From Liolophura sinensis (Eukaryota > Mollusca > Polyplacophora > Chitonida > Chitonidae), in the NCBI RefSeq assembly GCF_032854445.1, contig NC_088295.1, positions 53,303,249 to 53,367,248 of the forward strand: DNA of 64,000 bases, written 5' to 3'. Shown here one piece after another: positions 724 through 62,200 of the stretch. The translations under genes were made by a program, and so were the position numbers. The notes under the pieces were generated by a model. That model was not told the DNA's origin, made no database searches, and saw only the letters and a list, made by a program, of their open reading frames with translations. Numbering within the stretch: the first letter of the stretch is position 1; the number at the start of each line of letters is the position of its first letter.

Positions 724-726
724 GTC

Positions 727-2061: not shown

Positions 2062-2062
2062 A

Positions 2063-35200: not shown

Positions 35201-38200
35201 TGCGGTTTCATTAATCAGGTACTTGGATCATCAGTAAGAGAACTTGCATTTATCTAAACCTTGTGTTGTCCTCGTGCCAACAGAAAGTGGATTATTATGG
35301 AGTTTCATTAATCAGGTACTTGGATCATCAGTAAGAGAACTTGCATTTATCTAAACCTTGTGTTGTCCTTGTGCCAACAGAAAGTGGATTATTATGGAGT
35401 TTCATTAATCAGGTACTTGGATCATCAGTAAGAGAACTTGCATTTATCTAAACCTTGTGTTGTCCTCGTGCCAACAGAAAGTGGATTATTATGGAGTTTC
35501 ATTAATCAGGTACTTGGATCATCAGTAAGAGAACTTGCATTTATCTAAACCTTGTGTTGTCCTTGTGCCAACAGAAAGTGTATTATTATGGGGTTTCATT
35601 AATCAGGTACTTGGGTCATCAGTAAGAGAACTTGCATTTATCTAAACCTTGTGTTGTCCTCATGCCAACAGAAAGTGTATTATTATGGAGTTTCATTAAT
35701 CAGGTACTTGGGTCATCAGTAAGAGAACTTGCATTTATCTAAACCTTGTGTTGTCCTCATGCCAACAGAAAGTGTATTATTATGGAGTTTCATTAATCAG
35801 GTACTTGGGTCATCAGTAAGAGAACTTGCATTTATCTAAACCTTGTGTTGTCCTCATGCCAACAGAAAGTGTATTATTATGGGGTTTCATTAATCAGGTA
35901 CTTGGATCATCAGTAAGAGAACTTGCATTTATCTAAACCTTGTGCTGTCCTCGTGCCAACAGAAAGTGTATTATTATGGAGTTTCATTAATCAGGTACTT
36001 GGATCATCAGTAAGAGAACTTGCATTTATCTAAACCTTGTGTTGTCCTCATGCCAACAGAAAGTGTATTATTATGGAGTTTCATTAATCAGGTACTTGGG
36101 TCATCAGTAAGAGAACTTGCATTTATCTAAACCTTGTGTTGTCCTCATGCCAACAGAAAGTGGATTATTATGGAGTTTCATTAATCAGGTACTTGGATCA
36201 TCAGTAAGAGAACTTGCATTTGTCTAAACCTTCTCTTGTCCTCATGCCAACAGAAAGTGGATTATTATGGAGTTTCATTAATCAGGTACTTGGGTCATCA
36301 GTAAGAGAACTTGCATTTATCTAAACCTTGTGTTGTCCTCATGCCAACAGAAAGTGGATTATTATGGAGTTTCATTAATCAGGTACTTGGATCATCAGTA
36401 AGAGAACTTGCATTTATCTAAACCTTCTCTTGTCCTCATGCCAACAGAAAGTGGATTATTATGGAGTTTCATTAATCAGGTACTTGGGTCATCAGTAAGA
36501 GAACTTGCATTTATCTAAACCTTGTGTTGTCCTTGTGCCAACAGAAAGTGTATTATTATGGAGTTTCATTAATCAGGTACTTGGATCATCAGTAAGAGAA
36601 CTTGCATTTATCTAAACCTTGTGTTGTCCTCGTGCCAACAGAAAGTGGATTATTATGGAGTTACATTAACCAGGTACTTGGATCATCAGTAAGAGAACTT
36701 GCATTTATCTAAACCTTGTGTTGTCCTTGTGCCAACAGAAAGTGGATTATTATGGAGTTTCATTAATCAGGTACTTGGGTCATAAGTAAGAGAACTTGCA
36801 TTTATCTAAACCTTGTGTTGTCCTTGTGCCAACAGAAAGTGTATTATTATGGAGTTACATTAACCAGGTACTTGGATCATCAGTAAGAGAACTTGCATTT
36901 ATCTAAACCTTGTGTTGTCCTTGTGCCAACAGAAAGTGGATTATTATGGAGTTTCATTAATCAGGTACTTGGGTCATAAGTAAGAGAACTTGCATTTATC
37001 TAAACCTTGTGTTGTCCTCATGCCAACAGAAAGTGTATTATTATGGAGTTTCATTAATCAGGTACTTGGGTCATCAGTAAGAGAACTTGCATTTATCTAA
37101 ACCTTGTGTTGTCCTTGTGCCAACAGAAAGTGGATTATTATGGAGTTTCATTAATCAGGTACTTGGGTCATAAGTAAGAGAACTTGCATTTATCTAAACC
37201 TTGTGTTGTCCTCATGCCAACAGAAAGTGGATTATTATGGAGTTTCATTAATCAGGTACTTGGGTCATAAGTAAGAGAACTTGCATTTATCTAAACCTTG
37301 TGTTGTCCTCATGCCAACAGAAAGTGTATTATTATGGAGTTTCATTAATCAGGTACTTGGGTCATCAGTAAGAGAACTTGCATTTATCTAAACCTTGTGT
37401 TGTCCTCATGCCAACAGAAAGTGTATTATTATGGAGTTTCATTAATCAGGTACTTGGATCATCAGTAAGAGAACTTGCATTTATCTAAACCTTGTGTTGT
37501 CCTCGTGCCAACAGAAAGTGTATTATTATGGGGTTTCATTAATCAGGTACTTGGATCATCAGTAAGAGAACTTGCATTTATCTAAACCTTGTGTTGTCCT
37601 CATGCCAACAGAAAGTGTATTATTATGGAGTTTCATTAATCAGGTACTTGGATCATCAGTAAGAGAACTTGCATTTATCTAAACCTTGTGTTGTCCTCGT
37701 GCCAGCAGAAAGTGTATTATTATGGAGTTTCATTAATCAGGTACTTGGGTCATCATTAAGAGAACTTGCATTTATCTAAACCTTGTGTTGTCCTCATGCC
37801 AACAGAAAGTGGATTATTATGGGGTTTCATTAATCAGGTACTTGGATCATCAGTAAGAGAACTTGCATTTATCTAAACCTTGTGTTGTCCTCATGCCAAC
37901 AGAAAGTGTATTATTATGGAGTTTCATTAATCAGGTACTTGGATCATCAGTAAGAGAACTTGCATTTATCTAAACCTTCTGTTGTCCTCATGCCAACAGA
38001 AAGTGTATTATTATGGAGTTTCATTAATCAGGTACTTGGATCATCAGTAAGAGAACTTGCATTTATCTAAACCTTGTGTTGTCCTTGTGCCAACAGAAAG
38101 TGTATTATTATGGAGTTTCATTAATCAGGTACTTGGGTCATCATTAAGAGAACTTGCATTTATCTAAACCTTGTGTTGTCCTCATGCCAACAGAAAGTGG

Positions 38201-41200
38201 ATTATTATGGAGTTTCATTAATCAGGTACTTGGATCATCAGTAAGAGAACTTGCATTTATCTAAACCTTGTGTTGTCCTCATGCCAACAGAAAGTGGATT
38301 ATTATGGGGTTTCATTAATCAGGTACTTGGGTCATAAGTAAGAGAACTTGCATTTATCTAAACCTTGTGTTGTCCTCATGCCAACAGGAAGTGGATTATT
38401 ATGGAGTTTCATTAATCAGGTACTTGGATCATAAGTAAGAGAACTTGCATTTATCTTGTCCTTGTGCCAACAGAAAGTGAAATATTATGGGGTTACATTA
38501 ACCAGGTACTTGGATCATAAGTAAGAGAACTTGCATTTATATAAACCTTGTGTTGTCCTCGTGCCAACAGAAAGTGAATTATTATGGAGTTTCATTAATC
38601 AGGTACTTGGGTCATCAGTAAGAGAACTTGCATTTATCTAAACCTTGTGTTGTCCTTGTGCCAACAGAAAGTGAATTATTATGGAGTTTCATTAATCAGG
38701 TACTTGGGTCATCAGTAAGAGAACTTGCATTTATCTAAACCTTGTGTTGTCCTCGTGCCAACAGAAAGTGTATTATTATGGAGTTTCATTAATCAGGTAC
38801 TTGGGTCATCAGTAAGAGAACTTGCATTTATCTAAACCTTCTCTTGTCCTCATGCCAACAGAAAGTGAATTATTATGGGGTTTCATTTATCAGGTACTTG
38901 GGTCATCAGTAAGAGAACTTGCATTTATCTAAACCTTGTGTTGTCCTCATGCCAACAGAAAGTGTATTATTATGGAGTTTCATTAATCAGGTACTTGGAT
39001 CATCAGTAAGAGAACTTGCATTTATCTAAACCTTGTGTTGTCCTTGTGCCAACAGAAAGTGTATTATTATGGAGTTTCATTAATCAGGTACTTGGATCAT
39101 CAGTAAGAGAACTTGCATTTATCTAAACCTTGTGTTGTCCTCATGCCAACAGAAAGTGTATTATTATGGAGTTTCATTAATCAGGTACTTGGATCATCAG
39201 TAAGAGAACTTGCATTTATCTTGTCCTTGTGCCAACAGAAAGTGAAATATTATGGGGTTACATTAACCAGGTACTTGGATCATAAGTAAGAGAACTTGCA
39301 TTTATCTAAACCTTTTCTTATCCTCATGCCAACAGGAAGTGAATTATTATGGGGTTTCATTAATCAGGTACTTGGATCATAAGTAAGAGAACTTGCATTT
39401 ATCTAAACCTTGTGTTGTCCTCATGCCAACAGAAAGTGTATTATTATGGAGTTTCATTAATCAGGTACTTGGATCATCAGTAAGAGAACTTGCATTTATC
39501 TAAACCTTGTGTTGTCCTCATGCCAACAGAAAGTGGATTATTATGCGGTTTCATTAATCAGGTACTTGGATCATCAGTAAGAGAACTTGCATTTATCTAA
39601 ACCTTGTGTTGTCCTCATGCCAACAGAAAGTGTATTATTATGGAGTTTCATTAATCAGGTACTTGGATCATCAGTAAGAGAACTTGCATTTATCTAAACC
39701 TTCTCTTGTCCTCATGCCAACAGAAAGTGTATTATTATGGAGTTTCATTAATCAGGTACTTGGATCATCAGTAAGAGAACTTGCATTTATCTAAACCTTG
39801 TGTTGTCCTCGTGCCAACAGAAAGTGTATTATTATGGAGTTTCATTAATCAGGTACTTGGATCATCAGTAAGAGAACTTGCATTTATCTAAACCTTCTGT
39901 TGTCCTTGTGCCAACAGAAAGTGAATTATTATGGGGTTTCATTAATCAGGTACTTGGATCATCATTGAGATAATGTGCCAGTCATAATTAATTCTATATT
40001 TAGCTTTATTTGAACCAAGTGACTCCTGTGACTATGTTGGTGATGAATCAAAACAGACATGTTAAACAAATGTGTCAGATAACAAGTGTATTTCGCCGAT
40101 TTTGTAGATCATGCTGTGATGCACAACACAGATGTGGAGCCGCCAGATGAAGAAACGGTGATGCGGATGGGTCTGCCTCTTCTTCAGCCATTGAACAGTG
40201 TGAAGAAGTCTAACGCTATAGCTGTGGAGCAGAGGTTCTCTTCCAGAGCCGCTAGTTTAACGCAGTCCTTGATGCAACCCATAGTCTCAGCCACATGTTC
40301 CACCAAGTCCAAACACCCGAAGGTTTGTGGGCTTCTCAGTAACTTAGAATGCGATATTTCCCATTGCCAGGCAGCATTTACACTATAAAATGTTAAGTCT
40401 CCTTAACATTAGCAAACACTGAAAGATTTGCATCTAGTTTTTCCACTAGTTGTCATTCCTTGTAGTTTTCTAGACACCTACATGTATGTTCGTGATGAAA
40501 TGTGGAATCGATCAAAAACAAAGATCACTATTCCGCTATAAAACGAGTGTAATCTTTCGAATATTTCACCCACATTATTTGAATTAACTTAAAATTAAAA
40601 ATGTCATCGTTTTTCATCTTGTATTGGGCGTTTAGCCTGTACTTAAGAAACATTTTCTTTTAGTGATGGTACCTCTCTGAATGTAAGTGAGAAGGTCCTC
40701 CAGCAACCTGCGGATGGTCGAGGGTTTCCCTCAGGCCCTGCCAGGTTTCCTCTTACCATAATGCTGGCCGCCGTCGTATAAGTAAAATATTCTTGAGTAC
40801 GACATAAAACACCAATCAAATAAATAAATAAATAAGTGATGGCAAGAAATCAGTGTTGTGAGTGGAGGAAAAACTGTGAAATATTTGACTGTGAACTTTA
40901 TCTTATATGCTCAAGCATGTGTCAATTTTGCGATCACAACAGTTTTACACGTTACATCTGACAGCACAGGATTTATTTCAGTCGACATTAGCAAGTAACA
41001 GTACACCTTCTGAGGGGGTCTATCAGGCAGGAAGTTGTGAGATCTCTGCAGGCCATGTGAGTGAACCAAAGGATCAATCCACATCAGATGTGAGAGGAAA
41101 AGACAAAAATTCAGGAAAGGACAACTCTGAGAATAAACCTGAAGAATCATCCAGAAATTCAAGTCAGGAGTGTGTTACAGCTATGAAATCTCAGATAGTT

Positions 41201-44200
41201 GACGCCATATCATTAGAGACTTCAATGGCAGCAGATGCTTCTAGTAGCAAACAGCCATCTAGGTCTGAGGACCAGTCAGGCAAGAGCTCCACCAATTCAG
41301 ACAAGAGCTCCACCAATTCAGACAAGAGCTCCACCAATTCAGACAAGAGCTCCACCAATTCTAGGAACTACTCAAACAGTAGACATAAATCTTATCGATC
41401 CAGACATCAGTCTGAACAATCTTCCAGACACCAATATGAAGGTTCGTCAAGTTCTGAATGCTCTTCTAGACAGCAGTATAAACATTCTTTAAGCTCTGGA
41501 CATCAATCCAAAGACTCTTCCAGATTCCCATCTGAGCACCCTTCTGACTCAAGACGTGAGTCTGAACAGTCTTCTAGACATCAACATGGACGCCCCTCAA
41601 CTTCTGGACATGGGTCCAAACACTCTTCCAGATACCGAACTGAACACTCTTCAGACTCAAAACATCGCTCTGAACAATTCTCAAGACACCAATCTGACCA
41701 CTCTTCACATTCTAGATACCAGTCTAAACAGTCTTCTGGCTCCAAAAACTCTTCACATTCAGAACGATCCACAAGTCATGGACACGCGTCAAAAAGCGAT
41801 GAGGTATCATCTTCGGAAAGGACATCTGATTCTCGCCACTCGAAACACGTTAGATTTGAGCAAAGTTCCACGGGTAATTCCATGCCAAGGTGTGAAGGCT
41901 CCTTGGGTTCAAAACAGTCCTCTACATCCAGCCTAGGGCAATATTCTACCCCCAGACAAACTTTTAACGGTGAGCCTACATCAGCTCCAAACCACCAGTC
42001 ACCACCGGTAAATGTTTTTTCCAATTCTGTTCAAACTTCAATTTCAAGACCTTGTACAGATTCAGACCAGAATTTGGATTCAAAACTAAGGACACGGTGT
42101 CAGAATGGTTCAGTTTTTGGAAGTGCAGTAAATGCTAGCAAGGAATCTACACCGGCAGCTTGCAATAGGGCAGTGGCCAGTGTCAGTAAAGTAAAGTCAG
42201 ATAGCTCCAACAGCATTCAGCCTTTGCCCGCAGGTGGTGCAACGCAACCCTGCCAAAGCAGCTTGCACACTTTCTTCAAGAAAATTCTCAAGTGGAATGT
42301 CTCATGGCTTAGAGAACAAAAAGGTAAGATCAACCTTAATTCATTAGCCTGACCTCATCGTTATATGACTGAAAAATTGTTAAGTACAATGTTAAAGCAC
42401 CAATCATGCATACATATACAGTGTACATTAGTCTGACAACACAGTGATCGCTTCAGTGGTTAGAGAGTCCCTCGAAGTCGGAAGACCCGGTATAAAACTT
42501 AGATTAGGTCAAACCAAAAACTTTGAGAAATGGTGCTTGTTGCTGCCTTGATTGATACTCAGCATTTAGAGGTTACAGCAAGGAAACAGGACTGGTTTGT
42601 CTGGTGTTGGTATAATGTGACTGGGGTGTCAAGCCCGGTGTCTTTACCATGATACGTCACATACAGTGAGAGTCAACATTGTTCCCCCAAAAAGTAGAAC
42701 ATGCTGTGTGCTACAGTTTAGATGTGGATGACTTGCAGTTGAAACTGCAGTAGATTGTTCAACATGATTAAAATGATTTAATACTTTCCACAACAGAATT
42801 CTGTAAGTATCCCATTTAAGTGATAAGGATAAAGGACAGAACTATTTTTGGAAATGCTGTCTAATTGATTTGGCAAGTGTGCTGAATATATTACAGGATA
42901 AGCTACTTTTAAGGGAGATAACTCTTTTGATAGCGAATGGTAGTTTCTTCAGCCGTAAGTGAGAAGTCCAGCAACCTGCGGATGGTGGTTGATTTCCTCT
43001 GGGCTCTGCCCCGTTTCCACCCACCATAATGCGGGTACGCCGTCGTATAAGTGAAATATTCTTGAGTACAGTGTAAAACACCAATCAAATAAATAAATAA
43101 ATTTTTCTTGGCATTACCTTGAGAATATGATATTTCCACCTTTAGCATGGTGCTGCAGTGGAGGGGGAGGGGGTGAAACTGCACCATACAAAATCAACTA
43201 AATACTGGCCTTGTCTCATTACATTCTTTCCCTCTGTCAGGTGATGGGCAGACTGTCCCCCCAGTGGTGGACATGAGCAGTGTGTATCCTCTGTGTGAAA
43301 CATACAGCTCCTACAGTGATTATGAAGATATCATGACCCCACTGCTTTTGTTGGAAACCTGGGAAATGGTAGGTGTCATAATTAACGTCCCAGGACTCTG
43401 CCCGGGCTCTTACAACCGTAATGCCGCCATCATATAAGTGAATTATTCTTGAGTACAGCACAAAACAGCCATAAAATATAAAGTAAAAAAAAAATGTAAT
43501 GACTGGTTGGAAATATTACCCCAGTACTCACTACTTGATGATTGTTTTAGCTCTGTTCCCCTGGTATTACATGTGTTCCTCATATGTCACTGTTCATGTG
43601 ATGATTGTTTTAGCTCTGTTCCCCTGCTATTACATGTGCTCGTCATATGTCACTGTTCACGTGATGATTGTTTTAGCTCTGTTCCCCCAGTATTACATGT
43701 GCTCGTCATATGTCACTGTTCACGTGATGATTGTTTTAGCTCTGTTCCCCCGGTTTTACATGTGCTCCTCGTATGCCACTGTTCACGTGATGATTGTTTT
43801 AGCTCTGTTCCCCCGGTATTACATGTGCTCCTCATATGCCACTGTTCACGTGGTGATTGTTTTAGCTCTGTTCCCCCGGTATTACATGTGCTCCTCATAT
43901 GCCACTGTTCACGTGGTGATTGTTTTAGCTCTGTTCCCCCGGTATTACATGTGCTCCTCATATGCCACTGGGGGCCTCCGTGGCTCAGTCAGTTAGCGCA
44001 CTAGCGCAGCGTAATGACCCAGAAGCCTCTCACCAATGCGGTCGCTGTGAGTTCAAGTCCAGCTCATGCTGGCTTACTCTCCAGCCATAAGTGGGAAGGT
44101 CTGCCAGCAACCTGCGGATGGTCGTGGGTTTCCCCTGGGCTGTGCCCGGTTTCCACCCACCATAATGCTGGCCGCCGTCGTATAAGTGAAATATTCTTGA

Positions 44201-47200
44201 GTACAGCGTAAAACACCAATCAAAAAAAAAAAAAAAAAAAAAATCATATGTCACTGTTCACGTGATTGTTTTAGCTCTGTTCCCCCGGTATTACATGTGC
44301 TCCTCATGTGCCACTGTTCACGTGATTGTTTTAGCTCTGTTCCCCCGGTATTACATGTGCTCCTCATATGCCACTGTTCACGTGATTAACTGGGACAGGT
44401 TTGAGGTAACTCTGAACTACTTGATGGTTGTTTTTGGTTCATTCTGCAGATATACCGAAGTTGGCGTGAGCAATCAAACCATCCATGTTTTATGAGCTTG
44501 CTTGAAGACCTTGATATCAATGTTGACCCAAAACATAAACTCATGAAATTCTACTGGCTCAGTAAGTTCATAATATTTATTTATTTTTTTGTTTTGTGTG
44601 TTTCTTTTCATATAAAAATAAAATAAAAAAAATAAAATAAAATATAAAATAAAAAGACTTACTTTTCCGTTGTTTTTCTAGCCAATTTTCTTTTAGAAAC
44701 TCAATTGCAGAAGAAAGTCTAGATGCCACTCCCAGTGTTCATGGACTGAAGTGTCCACCATACAGTTCAGTCATATCGGAAGTCTGTATAAGATAGCATT
44801 TGTGATATTCTGTACATTTAGTTGACCTGCGTCTTATGGTAGAATAAAGAAACTGTCAGATTATAAACTACATGTAAGCTACATCTGAGTCACACTCGTG
44901 TTTGTTCAAAGATCTTGCTCACCAATGTCCTCAAAGACAATTTAAAATGTCAAGCCTTTCTCAAGTAGTTGTCAGTTGTATTAGTCCATTTCGCCACATA
45001 CATCTACTGATCATTGATTTTGGTTCGTCAGTACATGTAGCTCTTTATACATATTCATATTGGACCCGCAGTTTGACCCATTGACCCATTGCATGTATTA
45101 ACAAATGATGTGTCCTGAAGCACATGGGCATATTGCCTGGACCATGTGAATGGAGAAGTCATTGTCCCTGGCAGTGGTATTGTTTTATGGCTAGAAAATA
45201 AGTCACGTTGGCGTTTCAGGAGCCTCGAGTCTCGCAAGTTTAGGCAGGATTGGATGGTGGGGACTCTCGCTAACTAACGTGGTTAAAAGACATGATTTTA
45301 TGGTATCTGCTAACAGAGATGTTGAGCTGACAGACATGGCTGTGAGAGGTGTATAATCAGCTGAGAAAGTATGGTAAAATCTCGCCTTTGAGCTGCGTTA
45401 GTTTGCGAGAGCCCCTATCCTGTCTCTGACTCGGCTTATAGAGTATATGCCAAAGATGTCCCATCCTTGGAGAATGTGTTGGGAAAAATCTTGGTCGTAA
45501 AACTGTCAAGTTTTTTTCTTGCTAAACTTCCATTTTCAGCTTGAGCAAATGAAACACATACATATTTAAAGCCATTTTGAGACAAAGATTGGAACTCTTT
45601 CTAGAATGTGTCAAGTAAAGGAATGTCTGAACTACCATAAGAAAAAGTCCTTCTTGGACCATTCTTGAGAATGGATTCATGTATTCTTATGAAGTTTGGT
45701 GGACTTCCATTAGGAAGCCTATCGAAAAAAACCCTTGTCATACAGTATTTTACCAATGTCTGACCTACTTTCTTTTGGTAAGAATTCATCTCTGGTTAGA
45801 ACGACATGTTCGATAGATTTTTACATATACATGTAGAGCTTTACAAACCTTTAAACTGTTTTGTGAAGAGCTGCAGAGCCAAAGGATTGTGGTTAGCACT
45901 GCTATATGTTTACATGTTTATTATATACAGTAACTCAGCCACAATTTTATGGCAGTTTTCCTGTTGGAATATTCCTGTTGTTTGAGTTGTTGTTTTTCCC
46001 CCCGGGCTCTGGCCGGTTTCCACCCACCATAATGCTGGCCGCCGTCGTATAAGTGAAATATTCTTGAATACGGCGTAAAACATCAATCAAATAAACAAAC
46101 AAATAAATCCTGTTGTTTGATCTGTAGTATAAAGGGTGATTATGTAATGTATGTAAAATTATATTTGTCAGATAAAATTGCACGCCATTTCACCTAAGGA
46201 CTGCAGAGTGATTTGTTAATCTTATGAAAATATGTAATTACCCAATTTATACTAAACACCTGTGTTTTGTTTGGGAACCTCGCTGGAGAACACATTCTGT
46301 TTTGCAGCTGTGACAAAACGCAATGCTGAGAGGATGATCTCTGCTGGGGACATGGTCATTGTTCATCTGAAGAAGAAAGCGACGAATGAAAATGATCAGA
46401 GCAAAGTGTATGAGGTGTTTGGCTATGTAGAGGCCTGTAAAGTCCTGGACAGCAATACTGCAAGGCATTGCCTCAACTACAAGCCCATCCTGAGTGAGTC
46501 AACAGTAAACATCTTCGTAGACAACATGTACATTTGCCTTTTTCTCGTGCTCCCCCATGCCTGGTACCATTAAACAGTTGACAATTACTCATGTACCTGT
46601 TTCCACAAATGGAGACCTCGAATCTACCACCAGTATGTTGTGAACATCTTTCCTCTCACTTGAGAAAGTTCATGAACAATTCTTAAGTATTGTACAGTCA
46701 AATAAAAATAAATAAATAGATAAATTAATAAGTACATTGACTAGTAAATAATATTTAATTCTGTAAAATACTTTTTTATATTATTCGCTGGAATTTATTT
46801 TTGCGGATTTTCTCCAAAAATATGTTCGCGGGAATTAATTTTATCACGAGGTAAAAAGATTACTTTCGCACCTACCGTGAGCAGTACTCAAACAGGTTTC
46901 AGTTCTTTTCAAATTATTGATGAATACATTTAAACACCTGGCAAAGTGACCTGTCGACTTTTGAGCAGTTCAACGCAAAACATGTGAATTCACCATTATT
47001 AGAAACCGCAAACATTGCCATAGCTGTCAAACGGCCCTTGTGTTGTTGTACACACTTCACAGGTTGTTAAAAGCTCACCCATTGGACCACAGGAGAGACA
47101 CAGCCAATGGGATAGCATGTATCCGAGGGACATTCATCAGAAGCCAGCATGTGCTGGCATCTACTTTTTTTTCACTTTATGGGCATAGCAAAGATTGATC

Positions 47201-50200
47201 AAACTAAAGACGAATAAACTCCCACTTTGTTTTATACCCACCAAGCCTTAGCACCAGAGTTTGTATATATTTAAACCATAATTTCCTTCCCAGCTGTTAA
47301 AAAATTTAGCTGACACGTCATGCTTTCTTAGCGCAACTCCTGTCACCCTGGCAAAGATTTCACTTCATTATTACTACTAACTGTAGTATTTGATTCAATA
47401 TTGGATATTTTTTTCGCTGGAATTATTTTTCGCAGTAAATTATTGAAATCGGCGAAAATTAGCTCCACGTGAAAATTAAGTACTTCACAGTAATGCTGGG
47501 ATTCAAAAACAAGTATCTGAATAGGTATATGTACTTGTAGCAGATATTAAAATGAGTTCAGTAAACTGTGAAAGGAAATCATGCATTCATTCCTTTCTTT
47601 TTTCTCTTTTGTTTCAGGGCAAGCTTTGACTGGTCCTGCTGAAGAGTTCCATTGTGTTAGGTTTCAGACGGTCACACGCTACAGGAAGATAACACCAGAT
47701 GTCACACTGATGAAAATTCAGGTCATTTTATATTCTCATTGGAGATGGGTTTTTTTCACTGGCTAACATCAGCTGAGACCTGGCTGTCTATTTAGATTCT
47801 CACTCTTGCATTTCAAATCTGTAAATTATTGTAACATTATACTGTAGTAATTGCTCATTGTGCATAGACCCGGATTTCGACTGGAACAAACACGATGTTA
47901 CAAAAATGAACAAAACTGCATTCCCTTTATCATTTTTTCCTTTATGTTTAAGTCATGAATATACAAATCAAAGTGTGATGATAGAAGTGTGCTTTGTTGG
48001 AATACTGTTTCCCAGATTGTGGCATCAGTCTCGACCTTTGTGCGACAGTACAAGGCCTTGTTGTACCTACCCTGCAGCCCTTTGGTCAGAGATATTCTGC
48101 GACCAGTCAACCTCAGTGTATTCACAGACTCCATCGTACGTGCTCGTGCCAGGGACCCACAGGTAAGTCACATGATGTACTGAGGGATTTCTGGTCAGGA
48201 AATGGCATAGTGATGAAAATGCAAAAATTTGTTGTGTGGGAGGGCTCAGAATATTGCACACTGTACATTTACCGTTGTTTTTGTCACCTGTGCACTCTAC
48301 CTCACGGTTGTGAAATGCTACTCCTCACATTTCTGCTGAGGAAGTAAAGTTTTTTGCATAGTCTGATGAAGTTAATGCCCTTGTTTTGATTTCCCCCACA
48401 GTCCAAGCTAAACGCTTCTCAGCAGCTGGCTGTGAAGATGGCGTGTCACATGTGTCTACAGCCCTTTAACATGCCCAGATTGACCCTCCTACAGGGTCCC
48501 CCGGGGACAGGAAAGTCACAAACCATCATACAGCTCATCAAGAAACTGAAACAGGTCAGTGGTAACCATAGAGCTCATCAGGACACTCGGACAGGTCAGT
48601 GACTAGGATCATTATAGAGCTCATCAAGACAAACAGGTCAGTGAGTAGGATCATCATAGAGCTCATTAGGACACACGAAGAGGTCGGTGATCTAATCAGG
48701 AGACACAAACAAGTCAGTGAGTAGGATCATAATAGAGCTCATCAGGACACACAAACAGGTCAGTGAGTAGGATCATTATAGAGCTCATCAGGACTCACAA
48801 ACAGGTCAATGAGTAGGATCATTATAGAGCTCATCAAGACAAACAAACAGGTCGTTGAGTAGGATCATTATAGAGCTCATCAAGACACAGGTCAGTGAGT
48901 AGGATCATTATAGAGCTCATCAAGACACAGGTCAGTGAGTAGGATCATTATAGAGCTCATCAAGACACAGGTCAGTGAGTAGGATCATCATAGAGCTCAT
49001 TAGGACACACGAAGAGGTCAGTGAGTAGGATCATTATAGAGCTCATCAGGACACACAAACAGGTCAGTGAGCTAATCAGGAGACACAAACAAGTCAGTGA
49101 GTAGGATCATTATAGAGCTCATCAGGACACACGAAGAGGTCAGTGAGTAGGATTGTTATAGAGCTCATTAGGACACACGAAGAGGTCAGTGAGTAAGATT
49201 ATAGAGCTCATCAGGACACACAGACAGGTCACTGAGTAGGATCATTATAGAGCTCATCAAGACACACAAACAGGTCAGTGAGCTAATCAGGAGACACAAA
49301 CAAGTCAGTGAGTAGGATCATTATAGAGCTCATCAGGACACACGAAGAGGTCAGTGAGTAGGATCATTATAGAGCTCATTAGGACACACGAAGAGGTCAG
49401 TGAGTAAGATTATAGAGCTCATCAGGACACACAGACAGGTCACTGAGTAGGATCATTATAGAGCTCATCAGGACACAGGTCAGTGAGTAGGATCATCATA
49501 GAGCTCATTAGGACACACAAACAAGTCAATGAGTAGGATCATTATAGAGCTCATCAAGACACAGGTCAGTGAGTAGTATTATTATAGAGCTCATCAGGAC
49601 TCACGAAGAGGTCAGTGAGTAGGATCATAATAGAGCTCATCAAGACAAACAAACAGGTCAGTTAGTAGTATCATTATAGAGCTCATCAGGACACACAAGC
49701 AGGTCAGTGAGTAGGATCATTATAGAGTTCATGAGGTCAGTGAGTAGGATCATAATAGAGCTCATCAAGACAAACAAACAGGTCAGTTAGTAGTATCATT
49801 ATAGAGCTCATCAGGACAAACAAACAAGTCAGTGAGTAGGATCATTATAGACCTCATGAGGTCAGTGAGTAGGAATACCATAAAGCGTATTGAGAAATCC
49901 ACAAAGTTAAGGAGATATGAAAAGGTCAGATAAAACCAGCGATGATTCTTGTTTGTTTTCTGACAACTCTTACTAGCAAGTTTCCCCCCAGTTTCCCTTT
50001 ACCCTTAGCCATTTACATGTACCTTCAGGTGCCTGTATTGTCATATATTTGAAATCAGATTCACACTGCAAGAAATACATCGTCAATATCTTGAGTAAAA
50101 GGAAACTGAATTTGTGAATTTCAGAATGTTTTGGGAATGAAATAAATATTTATTGTTCCAAGTAAAGAAAGTTATCTTGTAGAAATCTTTTGTATTATTC

Positions 50201-53200
50201 TTCAATATTAAGCTATGCTGTGGTATTACAGGAAAGTAACGGACAAGCTCGGATTTTGCTGTGTGCAGCATCCAATGCAGCATTAGATGAACTAGTGATG
50301 AGATTGCATCAGGAGCGTTCAAGAGACATTGGAAAGCCTGGTGGTGAGGATATAATATATTCTGTAGGGATTTAACAAGAGAGTTTGAAAAGCCTGGTGG
50401 TGAGGATATCATAAGAACGTGGATTATACCATGACACAACCCTAAGCCAGAATGTGGGTTAGGCGGGCAACTTTAGGAGAGTTAGGCCAGGACATAATTA
50501 ATTTAGACCAAGATGTGCGGTTAACCAGAACATAACTAATTTAAGTCAAGATATGGGTTAGACCAGAACATAACTAATTTAAGTCAAGATATGGGTTTGG
50601 ACAGGACATAACTCATTTAGATCAAGATAAGGGTTTGGACAGGGTATAACTAATTTAAGTCAAGATATGGGTTTGGGCAGGGTAAAACTCATTTAGATCA
50701 AGATAAGGGTTTGGACAGGGTATAACTAATTTAGATCAAGATAAGGGTTTGGACAGGGCATAACTCATTTAGATCAAGATAAGGGTTTGGACAGGGTATA
50801 ACTAATTTAGATCAAGATAAGGGCTTGGACAGGGTATAACTAATTTAGGTCAAGATATGGGTTTGGACAGGGCATAACTCATTTAGATCAAGATAAGGGT
50901 TTGGACAGGGTATCACTAATTTAGATCAAGATAAGGGTTTGGACAGGGTATAACTAATTTAGATCAAGATAAGGGTTTGGACAGGGTATAGCTAATTTAG
51001 ATCAAGATAAGGGTTTGGACAGGGTATCACTAATTTAGATCAAGACAAGCGCTTGGACAGGGTATAACTAATTTAAGTCAAGATATGGGTTTGGACAGGG
51101 CATAACTCATTTAGATCAAGATAAGGGCTTGAACAGGGTATAACTAATTTAGATCAAGATAAGGGTTTGTACAGAGTATCACTAATTTAGATCAAGATAA
51201 GGGTTTGGACAGGTTATAACTAATTTAGATCAAGATAAGGGTTTGGACAGGGTATCACTAAGTTGGATCAAGATAAGGGTTTGGACAGGGTATAACTAAT
51301 TTAGATCAAGATAAGGGTTTGGACAGGGTATAACTAATTTAGATCAAGATATGGGTTTGTACAGTGTATAACTAATTTAGATCAAGATAAGGGCTTGGAC
51401 AGGGCATAACTAATTTAGATCAAGATAAGGGCTTGGACAGGGCATAACTAATTTAAGTCAAGATATGGGTTTGGACAGGGCATAACTCATTTAGATCAAG
51501 ATAAGGGCTTGGACAGGGTATAACTAATTTAGATCAAGATAAGGGTTTGTACAGAGTATCACTAATTTAGATCAAGATAAGGGTTTGGACAGGTTATAAC
51601 TAATTTAGATCAAGATAAGGGTTTGGACAGGGTATCACTAAGTTGGATCAAGATAAGGGTTTGGACAGGGTATAACTAATTTAGATCAAGATAAGGGTTT
51701 GGACAGGGTATAACTAATTTAGATCAAGATATGGGTTTGTACAGTGTATAACTAATTTAGATCAAGATAAGGGCTTGGACAGGGCATAACTAATTTAGAT
51801 CAAGATAAGGGCTTGGACAGGGCATAACTAATTTAAGTCAAGATATGGGTTTGGACAGGGCATAACTCATTTAGATCAAGATAAGGGCTTGGACAGGGTA
51901 TAACTAATTTAGATCAAGATAAGGGTTTGTACAGAGTATCACTAATTTAGATCAAGATAAGGGTTTGGACAGGTTATAACTAATTTAGATCAAGATAAGG
52001 GTTTGGACAGGGTATCACTAAGTTGGATCAAGATAAGGGTTTGGACAGGGTATAACTAATTTAGATCAAGATAAGGGTTTGGACAGGGTATAACTAATTT
52101 AGATCAAGATATGGGTTTGTACAGTGTATAACTAATTTAGATCAAGATAAGGGCTTGGACAGGGCATAACTAATTTAGATCAAGATAAGGGCTTGGACAG
52201 GGTATAACTAATTTAGATCAAGATAAGGGCTTGGACAGGGTATAACTAATTTAGATCAAGATAAGGGCTTGGACAGGGTATAACTAATTTAAGTCAAGAT
52301 ATGGGTTTGGACAGGGTATAACTAATTTAGATCAAGATAAGGGCTTGGACAGGGTATAACTAATTTAGATCAAGATAAGGGTTTGGACAGGGCATAACTA
52401 ATTTAAGTCAAGATATGGGTTTGGACAGGGTATAACTAATTTAGATCAAGATAAGGGTTTGGACAGGGTATCACTAAGTTGGATCAAGATAAGGGTTTGG
52501 ACAGGGTATCACTAATTTAGATCAAGATAAGGGTTTGGACAGGGTATAACTAATTTAGATCAAGATATGGGTTTGTATAGTGTATAACTAATTTAGATCA
52601 AGATAAGGGCTTGGACAGGGCATAACTAATTTAAGTCAAGATACCTCCTATCATCACTCAGGAACATTTTGGACCAGTGGCTATCTGAACATGAACAAAA
52701 GCCCAGACAAAAGCCTGTGATTTGCCATGATTTTTCAATTTAGTTACAAATTCTACCAAATTTAGTCCATCCTAAACCTTGAATAAGCTATATGGCAGAT
52801 TTGTGCAGTGCCCACTTTAGAAGAGTCCATGTGTGCAGTTCTTTTACAAAGCAGCCACACTACGTTTGTAGAATGTGAATGTGAGGGGTTTTGTGAAGTA
52901 GTACGCCTACATGGTCCCTTATGAAGTCCACTCAGTTCTCCAAAGCAGTTTTCTATAACTCTTCACTATAAGTTTGTATTTATGTATGGTCTAAAACAGT
53001 TATCAATTTAAGAGATTACATAGTAAAAATTTTCTATAATGATTAAATTGAAAAGATCAGATTGACGCAGGGAACTAATATCATGTGCCATTTTGTACGA
53101 TTGCCTTTTTTTTTTTTTTTTCTCAAATTTTAGTCAAGGTTATCAACTTTGTGCGAACAGGCAGGTCTGAGAGTATGCATCGTCTCATTAGGAGCTACAG

Positions 53201-56200
53201 CTTAAATGAGCTGGTTCGGAATACTGCTCGGAAAAGTAAGTTTTGGGGAACCATTAGGGTTTTAGGCTTGTGTAGGAAGTTTTCATAGATTCGTAAGTCT
53301 AAGCCTGTCTAATGTGTGTGCTTTGTTGAAATGCCTCAATAAGTAAATACAAAGCTTCCAATGTTTCAGGCTCTTGATTTGGTGTATAGTATAATATGTT
53401 TACTCAGTAGAACCATGCCACCAAAGAGCTGTATGTTTTTATGGGTTTTTTTTTTTTTTTGGTCCATTTAATGTACTGTACTCTTTATTTTCTGGAATCT
53501 GTCTACATATACCATGCGCCTCTCCACATTGTATGTTCATATTACAATTGCTTCAAAGATTATGCTGTAAGATAGTAAGATAGTTTGTGCACACAACTGT
53601 TCCAGTTTCAGTACTCTGAGCTCCAAGTAAAAAAACTGCTCCTATTATGTTATTTAAGCTAAATGCACTGCTTTCCCGAATTTAAATTCATCGGTGATTG
53701 AAACTTTCTATTTCAGTGTAATGTGGGGGTACACTTTCTGTGTGTCCATCAGTCAGGATTTCTGTGCTTTGTTTATGTCTTATTAACTTTTAAATTAAAC
53801 TTACTGCAGCAAAATAATAGGTCACTCAGTGTATACAGGTATTGATTCTTTTTGTATGGCCTCCACCTGTTTTGGGGTCATCATGCATATTCTATCGTGT
53901 GCTCAGCTGATAACCTGATCTTCAAAGAGAAGCCTTGTTACCAGGCCTTAAATAAGCCCTACCAACCAATGTTCCCCTGTCTTTTTTTCTATCACGCGAC
54001 AGCGTGTTTAGTGCACTACCAGGTACAGTTCAGTCAAGACATACCATGTCCCAGAATCCCCAACAGTACTCTGATTTTCTGTAATGTAATTGGACAACTA
54101 AGAAACATGAATTTTAATATCTCTTTTTAAAATTGTTTTATACCAGAATATGCATGTATAGTTAATTCGTGATTGTGAATTCACAGGGCAGTTGCCCAAT
54201 CACACGCTTCAAACACTGGAGACTGAGAGGAATACAATGAACACAAGGCTGAACACTTTGACCAATCAGTTAAACACTCTACCAGACAACTGCAGCTCTG
54301 AAAAGGTGGGTATGACCTCATCTCTTGCTCTGAGACAGGGGATCCTTCCCATAAATAGTTGGCATGTCCACATTCCCATTAGTGGGTGTGTCCAGGTGTC
54401 CTTTTAAGGATGTCTCCACATTCCCATTAGTGGGTGTGTCCAGGTGTCCTTTTAAGGATGTGTCCACATTCCCATTAGTGGGTGTGTCCAGGTGTCCTTA
54501 TAAGGATGTGTCCACATTCCCATTAATGGGTGTGTCCATGTTCCATTTAATGGTTGTTACAAGTTTCCATTAGTGGGTGTCTCCACGTTTCTTTAAGTGG
54601 ATGTGTGAGATTCCTGTTCAGTGGGTATTTCCACGTTTCCATGAGTGGGTATGTCCATATTCCCATTAGCTATTATGTCCACATTAGCGGTTATGTCCAT
54701 GTAGACATTAGTAGTTGTGTCCACATTCCCTTAAGTGGTTATGTCCACCTACCCATTAACAGTTATATCCATGCAGACATTAGTGGTTATGTCCACATTC
54801 CCATTGGTGGTTATGTCCACATTCCCATTATTGGTTATGCCTACATTCCCATTAGCATTTATGTTCACATACCCATTAATGGTTAAGTCCACATTCCCAT
54901 TAGTGGTTATGTCCATGTAGGCATTAGTGGTTAAGTCCACATTCCCATTAGTGGCTATGTCCATGTAGGCATTAGTAGTTAAGTCCACATTCCCATTAGT
55001 GGATATGCCCACGTAGATATTTGTGGCTATGTCCATGAAGACATTATTGGTTATGTCTTCATTCACATTAGTGGCTACATGTATGTCCATGTTCCCATTC
55101 ACGGCTATGTCCATGTAGACATTAGCGGTTATGTCCATGAAGACATTATTGGTTATGTCTTCATTCACATTAGTGGCTACATGTATGTCCATGTTCCCAT
55201 TCACGGCTATGTCCATGTAGACATTAGCGGTTATGTCCGCATTCCCATTAGTGGTTGTGTCCAAGTTCCCAATCAGGGGTGTTATTGGGTTTGTCCAGAT
55301 TTCACAGTGTGATATAGGTAGTCATTTCGTTATTTATCTCACTAAAGACAGATAGGCAGACAGAACCTCAATAGAGTGTTGAAAAAAAGCATGCGCTAAA
55401 GGTGCGGTCAAGTCATGGTTCTTCTCGCAGCCAGTTCAATTTACTGAAATGTGTAACATATTTTAATAAATCGGTGTTGAACAGCTGTGGCTGGCACAGT
55501 GTCATCCCATTGTATCTGAGGGTCACAGAAAGTAAAAAAGTAGGAAATGAGAAAACATTTTGAGAAAAAAATCTGTAGGTATATTATGCTGTGTTGTTTC
55601 GCTATGAAAATAATTTCAACTGGATATGTAGTATGGTGTGCCTAGTGGTGCAAGAAAGGAAAAAATAAGTACCAAAACATTTATCTCTCTCTCTGCAGAG
55701 AGCAAGAAACAGTTGTCTTAATGTGAGATTAAGACAACTCCAATCTGAGCAGTCACATAATTTGTGACCATAATGTTTTCCACTCTATTATGGGTGTTTG
55801 CCCTCAGTTATTGAACGTGGTGGTAGTTGGATGATGGTTTTAAATTTTATTCGCACTGAAAGTTGACGAAAATACCTGTGTTAAGAACAAAAGACCATGG
55901 GAACGCTGCCCATTGGTCTTTTGGAATATTAAAGTGATGTGCATGCTCATGTATCAGTATCATTAGAACATATGGAAACCATCGGTTTACCAGATATATC
56001 TACTTTTTAGTTTGACCAGGATAGCCGCTGAGTTGTCTCTTCATAATTCCCAAGTTGCTTGTAGGTCTTTGAGCATTGCATATATTTAGTGAATTGCATT
56101 GCATGTATCTTTCCAGAGAGCAAGTGTTAGACGGGAACTTAACATGCTGCAGAACCGTAAAAAGTTCCTGGATCGGACAGTCAAGTGTCAATCAGTAAGT

Positions 56201-59200
56201 CTTGTATATGACATTCACGAGATTATTTACGTACTGTGTGTATATGCAAATCAACCTTTTTAACCTATTATGTAAATCAGTTTTTTTTTTCATTAGAATT
56301 TATGCATACAAATATTATGAAGCTGAAATTTCTTTATGATGCCAAAATTGTTTGTTTGTGTCACTAAAGATGCTAGCTCCCTGAAACTGTGGAATTTATT
56401 TCTCTACTCCCCATAGTTCTCTCAGAATGCTTCAAAATATTGGTTGTACAGGTGGCTGAAAAGGTTGAAGAATTTCGGTTAACTAGATGGGCAGCATGAT
56501 GTTTCTCTCGTACTTCTGCCGGACATGTCCTCAAAACCTGGACAAAGTCTAACCAAACTGAATTTTTGAGGGTTAAGCAGGCCCTGGCCTAGCGGTCAAG
56601 AAGATATGATGCAGGAGTTGTGGGTTCAGTTCGACCCTTACCTTGAGTTGCTTTGATTTCCTCCGCCTGTAGAAACCTGACTGCCAGCGTAGAAGTGAAG
56701 TAGGAGTAGAAATCTTGAGTACGACATCAACAATTAATCAAATATTAAATATACTGATGAATTTTTGACATTTTCTTCATTATAACCACCTTAAGGCAAC
56801 ACCATTTACAAGACAAATTACGGAATGTAAATTAACCAAATTTTGTTATAGTATCCCTTTATAGATCCCTAAAGTAAGTACATGTACGTGTACAATATAT
56901 GTCCTTGTCACCTCATTAGGACAGGAATTGTTTTTTTTTTTTTGCCACATTGTCTGCCAGATTGTGATTGCTTATCTTCACAATAGTTCACATATCTGAG
57001 TTATTCCAACAGATGGTATTGGCCCCCATTACACATGGTCATTGCAGGCTGGTAAGTCACCTGGATAGTTACAGTCAGCATAGTCTACAAATGTCCAGTG
57101 GTTAGAGACCCTTTTTATGTCTTGCTTTCAACCAGTCTTGTATCTCTATTAGTTATTAACATGTCCTGAAGTACTATTAGGGATCAACCAGTCCTGCATT
57201 ACCATTAGGGATCAACCAGTCCAATATCACTATAAGAGATCAATCAGTGCGAGATTCCTGTTAGGGATCAACCAGTCCTGCATAACCATTTATAATAGTG
57301 ATGACCCAGTATGGAACATTGTCACTTTGCTGATTACAACATCATCTTATTCTTCATGTCAGAGCGAGAATGTTGTCATGAGCCCAGCAGAAGAAGCCCA
57401 GGTCAGAACTAGACTGTTACTCGGGGCAGACGTCATCTGTTCTACACTCAGCGGCATTGGTAGCCCGCTTCTAGTGGACACCTTTACGAACAGAGCTGCC
57501 GACCCAAGGAGAGCCCAGACCAATCATTTCACCTGTGTCATTGTTGATGAGGTAAATGTCTCCCAGTCATTTCACCTTCGTCATTGTTGATGAGGTAAAC
57601 GTTGCCTAATCATATCACCTGTGTCATTGTTGATACTATAAATGTCTCCCAATCATTTCACCTGTGTTGATGTTGACGAGGTAAATGTCTGCTAATCATT
57701 TCACATGTGTCATTGTTGATGAGGTACACGTTTCCCAATCATTTCACCTTTGTCATTGTTGATAAGGTAAATGTCTTGCAATCATTTCACCTGAGTCATT
57801 GTTGATGAGGTAAATGTCTCCCAATCATATCACCGCTGTCATTGTTGATGAGGTACACGTTTCCCAATCATTTCACCGGTGTCATTGTTGATGAGGTACA
57901 CGTTTCCCAATCATTTCACCTGTGTCATTCTTGATGTGGTACACGTTTCCCAATCATTTCACCTGTGTCATTGTTGATGAGGTACACGTTTCCCAATCAT
58001 TTCACCTGTGTCATTGTTGATAAGGTAACTTTCTTCCAATCATTTCACCTGTTTCATTGTTGATGAGGTAAATATTTCCCAATCATTTCACCTGTGTTAT
58101 TGTTGATAAGGTAAATGTCTTCCCAATCATTTCACCTGTGTCATTGTAAATGAGGTAAACATCTCCCAATCATTTCACCTGTGTCATTGTTGATGAGGTA
58201 AATGTCTGCTTATCATTTCACCAGTGTAAATGTTTATAAGGTAAATGTCTTCATTTCGATTTACTGTACACAGCTGAATTTTTTCATTTGTAAATCTAAA
58301 AAATATCAACTTTTGACTTAGGTGTTACTTTTGTCTTCGTTTTATTACTATGGAGAATAAATATTTTTCTTAAAAATTCACATTTTTAGAGGCAAATATA
58401 GGTCCTGAAATACTACTTTTGGTTCTGAAACTTACATTTAACCAATAGGATATCATCCTACCTTTCTAAACGTCTAATAAAATACATCTATTTTATTTAT
58501 GCCATTTACATAAGAATGTGGGTGGCCTAATGGCTAAAGCATCTGCCTCGAAGTCAGGAGACACAGGATTAAACCCTGGGTCAGGTTATCAAAGACTTAA
58601 AAAATGGTACTAGTTGCTGCCATGCTTGGCACTCAGCACTGAGAGTACTGGCAACACTGTGCTGGCATGGACTCACCCGGCACAAGAAGACACAGTATAT
58701 GTAGACGCACCAAGTAACTCCACATCGTCATCACATGATTAAAAAGTTTTATGTGAAACCCCAAGCATTCCTTCATTCAAAGAGTGCATAATTTATGTAA
58801 TAAATGTCATGTTTGTGAATACTGAAAGACAATGTACCTCATCTAATATGCCAGAAACTTAAAAAAATTTGATGGTAGATTTTTTGAATTGAATGAGTGC
58901 ACTCATAATTATCAATTATAGTAGGTTTATGGCTGGAGCAGATAACAATGGCCAATGTGTCCTTGGATCTGCAAGCACCGTCTTTGGTGGCCAGATAGGT
59001 GCAGTTCTCTGCCAGTGAGAGGCCATCAAGCGCTAGTGGTGTCAAGACTGTGTGTCACACTACTGCTGTCCGGGTAAAATGGTACATTTTACGCATAAAT
59101 GACTTTAGTTGTACAGGTACATGTTTAGATGTGTACATGCCTGTGTGCTTAATGGTTTAGTCATTCATGAATGTACTGTTATTTATATTTTTTTTACGTT

Positions 59201-62200
59201 CAGGCCACACAGTGCTCTGAGCTGGATTGTCTTATACCACTACAGTTTGGAATAACCAAAATGGTTTTAGTTGGGGATCCAGAACAGCTCCCTGCCACAG
59301 TCCTCTCAAAGGTGAACAAAAAATATGTGTAGCAGGTCTGTCTGACTCTTTACTGTGAAGGTATATGATTTCATTATCCCTGCACGTATGTGTGCGCTAG
59401 CACTTCAGGGAATAGGGCCAGTAGTAAAAGTATGTTGATTTGGCACAATGTAACTTGCATACAAGGCCTGCAAACAAGGACACCATTCTAAATTTTTATC
59501 TGGATTTGATGATTTTTTTTTGTACTTTTCTCTCAGTGTTTCTGAAATCTTACAATTTCTTTAAAAATTCCTAACATTTCCAATAGTCACACCAAAACAA
59601 AAAATATACTGGCTGACCTGTCCAATTTTTTCTTATAGGGTCATGTTACCACTATTTCTTCTGTAATTTGGGACATCGGGTCTCCTCATTGTAGCCGTTG
59701 TATCGAGTGGGCATAAAAAAATGGGCCGTACTTTGATGCTGCATTGCTCCATTATCCTTTGTTCAAACCCTTGCAAACTTTGGACATTCAAATGGCATGA
59801 CTTTGGTAATATACTGACCAATTTTCAAGGTCATAGCTTGAGTAGTCTATACACAGGGTTAAAATGAAAACATAGCCTCAGAAACGCACCTTCTGGCGAC
59901 CCACATTGCATCACCTGTCGTGTCATGAGTAGAGTGTGGGCTTCACCTGTGTGACACGCATCAATCAAGTGTCGTCTGGAAAAATTGTCTGGCTCTAGTG
60001 TCAGAGAAACCCTTCTGCCAGATAGGCAAAAGTTTTGCTGAATCAAGATGCTTTTCTCTGCGGTGGACAAGGAAAAAGCTCACCTTTTCAAGTAAAACAA
60101 GGTAGAATATCATTTTGAAATGTCTGGAACATGCGTTTTTTACTCTCTTTTGATTTTGTTCCCATGAACAGAAATCTTAAAGGATGACATTGAAATTTTG
60201 TCTATATACATAGGACATAATGGCTTTTGAGTGTGTAAATTTTTAAAAGCTGATGGAAGAGGGTTTTAAAGATATTGAGCGTCAAAGTACGGCCCATTTT
60301 TTTTAATACCCACCTGATATATGTAATTCTAGCAAGAATATTGAGTTTCTTTTTTCTCACATTGTCAGACCATCTAATGAACAAGATACTTATATCTTTA
60401 CTTTTCTTAAAGGCTGATAAAGAAATGTAATAATCTGCTTTAAGCACTACTAATATCTGTCCCAAATTTTTAGAAGAATTAGGTATGTGCGAAAAAGAAT
60501 CTTTTAATGATCTAGTATTTAACTTACGAAAAGATTGTTCACTATATTCAGATTTAAATTCGCTAAAATCAGAGAGGGTATATATGTTTAAAATAGATTT
60601 CAAAAAAGATATTAATTTGTACACACTTGTGGACTAAAATAACAATAGAATAACAAACATAATTGTTCAAATCCACCGTGGCTTTTCATTGAAAATTTGG
60701 GCTCAATTTGCATCATGGCTTTGTTAAAAAAGATCTTAAAATGTCTTATTAATCTGATTATACCTTGACCGCAAAACCTTTTTTAACACTTCATTTTTAC
60801 CCCAGTTTCTATGTGGTGTCTGGTTTCAGAAAGCAGATGAGAATCAGTTTCGTCTGTCCCTTTTCGAGAGACTGTGCCGCTACTTACAGACCAAGTTCGG
60901 TGATCAGGAATTAGTCCTCTTCCTGGACACTCAGTACAGGATGGATGGCGAGATCTGTGACTTCCCTAACAAATATGTCTATGATGATAGACTTAAAACT
61001 GACCAGTAAGTACTACACATATAGTAACAGGGCTTCAGTCTTATTTCAGCCAATTGTTTGATCAAGGTTTTGTCAGTATTTTGTCAGTCTGTCCTTCTCT
61101 CCATCCACCCAAATACCTGTTACTGCCAATGGCTCTAAAATTTTTTGAAACACTATTTTCGAGTATATGAAATAAATCTAAATGTGTACATTGTATGTAG
61201 CTGTATATAACATTTGCTACTAATCATCTGCTTGCAACATTCAGTGACCTGGGGTAGATAGTCAACGGTAGTTTCCAACCTTTGTTAATTGCTTGTAGAT
61301 CTGTGCTAGATAGAAGTCAGACGTTCCCCCTGAAGCCTTACCTGGTGTTCGACCTTCAGTATGGTAGAGAGGTCAACCCGGGCGTTGGGTAAGACATTCG
61401 CTTATGAGACACGTAAAAGCCCAGCCATCCACAGCAGCTCTGTTTGCAATTGGCTGAATAACTGCCATTAATTCATGGATTGGAACATGAGACACACACT
61501 TATGAGACACGTAAAAGCTCAGCCATCCACAGCAGCTCTGTTTGCAATTGGCTGAATAACTGCCATTAATTCATGGATTGGAACATGAGACACGCACTTA
61601 TGAGACACGTAAAAGCTCAGCCATCCACAGCAGCTCTGTTTGCAATTGGCTGAATAACTGCCATTAATTCATGGATTGGAACATGAGACACGCACTTATG
61701 AGACATGTAAAAGCTCAGCCATCCACAGCAGCTCTGTTTGCAATTGGCTGAATAACTGCCATTAATTCATGGATTGGAAAAAAATTTTTAAATAAAAGCA
61801 GGTGTTCATTTAAGGATTGAATTACATAATCTGCTCATCTGGAATGTTCAACAAATTGTATTTGTCTCTATTTGTACATAAATGTGTGTGGCCTGAGAAA
61901 CTTTTGGAAATGTTCGAAATGTAACAGTGAATTCCTTACTGTCTGAAAATGGTATAGTGTAAATAGATGCTTGAGCACAGTGCATACCTCTGCTCATCTG
62001 GTCTTTGGTACACATTCGTTGAAAATTACAGGTCTTCTTTCAAAGTGATGAACATTTGTGTACATTATGAGGGAAAGTTCATCACTAACTTGCCAAAGGT
62101 TTGTAGTTGGCACCAGGACAATCAATAAATCAATCAGTGAATTGATTGTTGTAATATTAGTGTAATATCATTTTAATTGCAGCATTAACAGCTATTGAAA

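Follow-up and report, generated by a model that had tools for sequence, protein, structure and literature searches.

Minisatellites that copy exon–intron junctions in a Sen1/senataxin-like helicase gene and in other genes of the chiton Liolophura sinensis

The introns of a helicase gene of the chiton Liolophura sinensis are rich in minisatellites, some of which begin at or across splice sites, and the question arises whether these tandem arrays are seeded at the exon–intron borders of this one gene or reflect a process that acts on the genome as a whole. The gene is located in a stretch of 64,000 nucleotides, hereafter called the window (contig NC_088295.1, positions 53,303,249 to 53,367,248 of the forward strand; assembly GCF_032854445.1); the assembly was published under the name Liolophura japonica, which was later corrected to L. 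sinensis (PMC12441733). An initial annotation of the window had described minisatellites seeded at splice sites of one helicase gene and had offered R-loops as a possible cause. The observation proved correct in the main once some details had been corrected; for its reading as a peculiarity of this gene, and for R-loops, no support was found. Junctions are indeed repeated, at both ends of introns and also in other genes.

The gene was modelled as 18 exons, B to S, on the forward strand, whose joined frame comprises 2551 codons with 0 stops. Exon limits were picked by eye at AG and GT, with the open frame as the only check. A domain search located a helicase core of AAA_11 (E = 1.7e-53) and AAA_12 (4.6e-23) in the last 650 residues. 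Among solved structures, Helicase SEN1 (8e-41) matched better than Upf1 (3e-27), and Sen1 was closer than Upf1, IGHMBP2, DNA2 and AQR; the sole row above Sen1, 8ftm_A (7.7e-42), is named just 5'-3' RNA helicase-like protein. The gene encodes a Sen1/senataxin-like helicase, for which SETX is a fair name by family. Its large exon B (30263..34409 with a provisional 5' limit, + strand as all features of the gene) is open in frame with the next 17 exons; exon E (43241..43368) follows from the open-frame model, exon J (48402..48554) carries the Walker A region GPPGTGKS, as seen in the exon model and the domain search, and exon O (57363..57551) the Walker B motif CVIVDE. Putative exons T, U and V were assigned by eye in the 10 kb beyond the window (locus L062), V being the least certain. 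Exon B also encodes, in the middle of the protein, six (T/S)Q(V/L/I)D-type motifs (FTQVD, LTQVD, ASQLD, ATQVD, STQLD and ATQID; window 32735-33751), which resemble short linear motifs.

Tandem Repeats Finder (TRF) revealed minisatellites in eight of the 17 introns between exons B and S, if arrays with a period of at least 10 and a length of at least 60 were counted, and array bases amount to 40.5% of the helicase stretch (34410-62289), largely owing to a 4.8-kb array after exon B. All seven arrays reported before, after exons B, E, J, K, M, O and R, were recovered. The other ~28 kb of the window had been described as free of arrays, and positions 1-30000 indeed hold none. An eighth array, after exon N, was missing from the earlier list. 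Two of the arrays start within the exon. Array J (48524..49861; TRF 48569-49861) consists of about 27 units of a ~46-bp family. Alignment places its start inside exon J, 31 nt upstream of the donor (48555), with a first copy that covers this exon end and the donor. Likewise, the first copy of array O (57520..58250, 43 bp x 17) comprises the last ~31-32 nt of exon O and the donor. For both, the alignment of the junction to a later copy spans -31 to +60, with scores of 93 and 137, respectively. At exon K, the segment from -24 to +14 around the donor is repeated once, 56 bp downstream (50320..50413), with 34 of 38 bases identical and a score of 56 versus 25 for the best swapped intron; the exact 21-bp duplicate noted earlier is a 21-mer inside this copy. 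The large array of the same intron (array K, 50487..52643, 38 bp x ~57), whose sense strand is G-rich (GC skew 0.42), has a different sequence and starts 143 bp after the donor. Thus, the claim that the arrays after J, K and O include the donor itself stands for J and O but not for K. A further case was found outside the window at exon T, where -23 to +29 is repeated with a score of 84, versus 23 for the best of 77 other introns.

The frequency of such repeats was determined by aligning the 60 bases around each splice site to at most 1.5 kb of the intron next to it, with the same 60 bases aligned to the introns of all other sites as control and a score of at least 50 as threshold; at least 150 bp of intron had to be in view. 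Besides 17 donor and 17 acceptor sites of SETX, sites were taken from the top 30 of 81 myosin and the top 30 of 132 kinesin matches in the genome. After removal of exon matches with an internal stop, 72 unique exons remained from 107 exon-in-locus rows, in which shared exons repeat, and 66 of the 72 donors and 69 of the 72 acceptors were kept after sites under the score limits had been removed. Splice sites outside SETX were predicted by a simple matrix that, applied to SETX itself, recovers all 17 donors and all but two of the 17 acceptors. Of 77 donors, five reached the threshold (SETX O, J and K and two of one myosin locus on contig C12, which belong to neighbouring exons) versus 0 of 5,852 swapped cells. 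Among the acceptors it was reached by 4 of 80 (L037, L021, L035 and L025, with scores of 98, 78, 74 and 69) versus 0 of 6,320; one swapped acceptor cell scored 40. Two exon rows (L030 and L054), whose loci are arrayless, are outside these counts; they contain one usable exon, whose donor and acceptor show no junction repeat, and their inclusion would give 5/78 donors and 4/81 acceptors. Hence, none of the 12,172 swapped comparisons was as high as the own-junction repeats. In SETX, three of the 17 donors in the window (J, O and K) but 0 of the 17 acceptors repeat their own junction, whereas outside SETX 6 of 123 kinesin and myosin junctions are repeated in the neighbouring intron (2/60 donors and 4/63 acceptors). 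With two donors and four acceptors outside SETX, a rule confined to donors is not supported.

The other arrays of SETX do not copy junctions: a junction-spanning repeat unit was seen for J, O, T and one K copy, but not for B, E, the 38-bp array K, M, N and R. The donor of exon R scores 39 owing to the array beside it, the likeness of the M and E arrays to their donors was not above chance, and B and N were unremarkable in the junction test. Array R (61391..61779; TRF 61401-61779; 98 bp x 3.9) starts 3-12 bp after the donor, which it excludes, and array M (54364..55271, 24 bp) starts 58 bp after the donor without a junction copy; both had been placed within about 10-35 bp of it. Array E (43536..44387, 63 bp x 6.9 and 60 bp x 2.4) ends 62 bp before the acceptor of exon F. 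It had been said to resemble this acceptor, but the likeness is no greater than chance would give: the own score is 25, one swapped comparison reaches 26, and the own score ranks second of 80. Array N (57128..57280, 28 bp x 5.5), the eighth array, ends 82 bp before the acceptor of exon O. Array E is divided by an element with an A-rich tail that resembles a short interspersed element (SINE; window 43971-44243), and similar pieces recur in the window, e.g. near 40690-40830, 46000-46110 and 63490-63730. The element may be akin to molluscan V-SINEs.

Array B (35150..39964, 97 bp x 49.9) is the largest array and lies 740 bp after the donor and 143 bp from the acceptor. In 48 of its units AACAG, a 32-nt stretch and CAG/GTACTTGG follow each other in this order, and these elements read as an acceptor-like site, a pseudo-exon and a donor-like site. 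Since 32 nt is no multiple of three, inclusion of one copy would shift the frame. The best match of the 97-bp unit elsewhere in the window and downstream is low (26), and an exon as its source was rejected on this ground. A 401-bp piece of array B gave 14 matches in a genome search, all within array B, and a piece of array O gave a single match. As these pieces match themselves only, with very frequent words ignored by the search, origin from a dispersed satellite or transposon was rejected as well for arrays B and O. Three further arrays with periods of about 50, 53 and 53 lie past the putative helicase stop codon (L062, 6036-8156), in the 3' untranslated region or in intergenic DNA.

Are such arrays a feature of one helicase gene, as had been claimed? 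Around the 60 myosin and kinesin exon matches 45 arrays were found (14.6% of 178,411 bp), and ten SNF2 loci, chosen from 58, contained eight (10.9% of 24,000 bp); 20 hand-picked 3-kb stretches at round-number positions also contained eight (7.1% of 60,000 bp). The one-gene explanation was therefore rejected, as the sampled myosin, kinesin and SNF2 loci hold arrays of the same kind. Exon-centred windows of SETX consist of array bases to 28% on average versus 14.6% (Mann-Whitney p = 0.002, but the SETX windows overlap). However, 11 of 37 myosin and kinesin locus groups exceed 28% and 13 of 37 have at least 20%, with groups being 60-kb bins, so that one gene may count twice; 33 of the 60 loci are without any array. 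The helicase gene thus ranks among the array-rich examples of a state that many loci share, and on the basis of three gene families and SETX the arrays are apparently widespread in this genome. The arrays in the three other families argue that the process is not bound to the helicase gene, and the single-locus matches of O and B are in line with locus-specific units.

In sum, the arrays are probably minisatellites that arise by local tandem duplication throughout the genome and are filtered by selection on splicing and on the reading frame. A segment of about 20-120 bp would be duplicated once, as still visible at exon K, with slippage or microhomology-mediated duplication as the ordinary candidate for this first step, and slippage or unequal exchange would then expand the single duplicate into a locus-specific array. 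The copy numbers of K (one extra copy), R (four units), O (17), J (~27) and B (50) fit one growth series. Where the segment straddles an exon–intron junction by chance, as it may have done at J, O, K and T and at both intron ends in other genes, every copy would carry a splice site; the exon-proximal donor (or acceptor) would be used, the remaining copies would stay intronic and the gene would still work. Within exons, only copies of a unit that leaves the reading frame intact would persist. Indeed, TRF places three arrays within exons (starting at 31357, 41276 and 41495), and their periods of 21, 21 and 108 are all multiples of three, the latter two being the in-frame repeats of exon D (41276..41692, 21 bp x 4.1 and 108 bp x 1.8; exon limits by eye). 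The periods of the intron arrays, which include 97, 46, 38, 28, 43 and 98, have no such restriction. These three exon cases suggest that exon and intron arrays stem from the same mutational process, filtered by the reading frame.

Array J contains 21 decoy donors with a score of at least 6 (16.1 per kb), 13 of them as strong as the real donor, and array O contains 10 (14.3 per kb), eight of them at least equal to it, versus 2.0 per kb in the introns outside arrays. All ten decoys in O and 20 of the 21 in J lie after an in-frame stop, and the last one in J shifts the frame. Since the decoys would break the frame, the exon-proximal donor must be used for a full protein, and the 18-exon frame is open with exon-proximal donors. 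On its antisense strand array O carries 12 donor-like sites with a score of at least 6.

The strongest competing explanation, which we consider unlikely though worth keeping in view, is that splice junctions are true hotspots in transcribed genes, at which co-transcriptional splicing, a U1-bound or stalled polymerase or R-loops close to exon ends cause breaks whose repair yields tandem duplications. It was weighed by the distance of array edges to splice sites, for which at least 100 bp of intron had to be in view, and several results weigh in its favour and against chance placement. Under uniform placement, 6 of 18 edges lie within -60 to +60 of donors versus 2.15 expected (p = 0.015) and 7 of 19 within the same distance of acceptors versus 2.24 (p = 0.004), a nominal 3-fold excess. 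Near exons, array density is also roughly double that of the 20 arbitrary stretches. Uniform placement does not allow for the fact that a long array in a short intron is bound to come near its ends. A length-aware null does so, but is overly strict, since introns are truncated at 1.5 kb in the sampled loci. With it, 13 of 37 edges were within 60 bp versus 8.9 (p = 0.04). In complete introns, 9 of 13 arrays were within 60 bp versus 4.2 (p = 0.002), although 10 of the 13 are from SETX (with T and U added), which was chosen because of the finding; only 2 of 18 complete introns of other genes hold arrays. Two further results count against the preferred account: the SETX cases are donors only (4/20) and those elsewhere mostly acceptors, and a replicate with SNF2 gave 0 of 26 junctions at 50 (0/12 donors, one of them at 46, and 0/14 acceptors), so that 6 of 149 sampled junctions outside SETX, about 4%, are repeated. 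The first arrays after SNF2 donors start at +4, +53, +60 and +275, the donor at +53 having a score of 3.9 with a limit of 4, and those in the downstream SETX introns T-U and U-V at about -23 and +36, while intron S-T is arrayless.

On the other side, the length-aware null absorbs part of the excess: it leaves p = 0.29 for donors alone and p = 0.048 for acceptors alone, and within 20 bp no excess was seen (7 versus 6.9). The eight arrays of the window by themselves gave no significant excess either (4 within 60 bp versus 2.8, p = 0.29). Donors and acceptors are both struck, and by coverage junctions are struck less often than the intron interior. In a mid-intron control, 14 of 61 random intron 60-mers reached a score of 40 in their own intron versus 22 of 3,660 swapped, which shows that array membership is common for intron DNA and is no junction test in itself. 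R-loops as common cause, for which a feedback link to the helicase had been conceived, find no support: the sense GC skew of the arrays is mixed. In other genes its mean is 0.066 and 27 of 46 arrays have a positive value (a count that differs from the 45 above by a coarser de-duplication); in SETX 3 of 8 do. Taken together, a 1.5- to 2-fold edge excess near splice sites is likely, and this mild excess may be genuine or merely a result of the way in which introns accommodate long arrays. A strict rule of seeding at splice sites was not shown; that some arrays are tandem copies of a junction (J, O, K and T) is supported. The initial annotation had named two observations that would speak against it, arrays equally common in the introns of most genes and a lack of enrichment at splice sites. 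Arrays proved to be common in the other genes sampled, but absence of enrichment was not clearly seen, given the 1.5- to 2-fold excess.

A function of the arrays is improbable in our judgement. On this reading the decoy donors would be kept as regulators of splicing, e.g. as decoy exons or as sinks for U1, and would reduce the amount of helicase via nonsense-mediated decay. The 13 and 8 decoys in J and O that equal or exceed the true donor, the stop or frameshift that every J and O decoy of score at least 6 would yield and the 48 pseudo-exon units of array B are in line with this, but other introns are filled by arrays with only 0-3 decoys each (the 38-bp array K, M, E, N and R). Even less likely are intermediates of intron gain. 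In the Rogers model (named in PMC3087553), tandem genomic duplication of an AGGT-containing segment makes the duplicate a new intron, and a case in a potato RNA-dependent RNA polymerase gene has been presented (PMC4974935), as far as the portions of these papers used here go. The J and O units start and end at AG/GT, so that each is a potential mini-intron, and of the four acceptors repeated in other genes, two (L021 and L035) are followed by an exon that likewise begins with GT. However, the chiton arrays lie inside introns with separate acceptors, 370 bp (J) and 953 bp (O) beyond the array end, and the introns need not derive from the arrays; the intron-gain model invoked earlier is not supported by J and O. 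An assembly artefact can be all but dismissed: arrays are hard to assemble, but the assembly is built from PacBio HiFi reads, its 609.5 Mb agree with a k-mer estimate of 609.7 Mb according to the part of the assembly report consulted (PMC11068029), most arrays have diverged units and array E harbours the SINE-like insert.

Minisatellites that copy junctions are already known from other animals. In amphioxus, minisatellite-like tandem duplications of exon/intron boundaries, called mirages, were described in Adh3, troponin C, the globins Gb6 and Gb9 and PGBD5; in the sections of these papers available to us, splicing was regular as far as transcript data suggested, copy number varied between haplotypes and the authors of the globin study proposed mirages as a route to new introns (PMC3087553, PMC3902484). 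As far as those sections go, mirages and chiton arrays share a junction-spanning unit, many AG- or GT-bearing copies, the involvement of 5' and 3' boundaries and the presence in several genes per genome. They differ in that amphioxus is a chordate, that the chiton arrays are known from the sequence of one assembly and that many of them are off junctions, intronic minisatellites being common overall. In human CBS, a 31-bp variable number tandem repeat (VNTR; c.1444_1467+7) occurs in 16-21 copies according to the excerpt consulted (PMC2630376), and more copies go along with lower enzyme activity in the account, seen in part, that cites Lievers 2001 (PMC5188458). From its name we infer 24 exon and 7 intron nucleotides with a donor in each copy, as in J and O; unlike the chiton arrays it is polymorphic and concerns one gene. 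Minisatellites are also reported within introns of lophotrochozoan genes, namely intron 3 of an abalone TSSK1-like gene (27-bp unit, length-polymorphic) and intron 1 of an earthworm metallothionein gene, which the text consulted does not describe as splice-junction copies (PMC6905558, PMC12783039). A literature search, confined to open-licence papers and a few terms, found no junction-spanning arrays in molluscs among the papers listed.

Two regions of the window upstream of exon B contain probable traces of retroelements. At 726-3717 on the reverse strand one frame encodes an integrase with an H2C2 zinc finger and another frame aspartyl protease and reverse transcriptase domains, pieces which, as the domain names are read, would belong to a Gypsy-like retroelement. 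At 4119-4727 on the forward strand a frame of 202 amino acids with a YIDDLL motif looks by eye like a reverse transcriptase fragment and had no Pfam match.

The chiton arrays can be seen, as judged from the genome sequence, as a mollusc case of the mirage-like phenomenon, which would accordingly extend beyond cephalochordates. In this genome the spliceosome has to pick one of many equal donors, and the arrays offer material for testing whether tandem duplication feeds the gain of introns and exons. Gene finders should beware, since each unit is a plausible splice site. It is also conceivable, though rather doubtful, that junctions in chitons are preferred birth places of minisatellites, donors and acceptors alike, with several percent of them multicopy and array B as a reservoir of nascent exons. 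If this were true, chitons would be a second lineage beside amphioxus in which to watch the birth of exons and introns.

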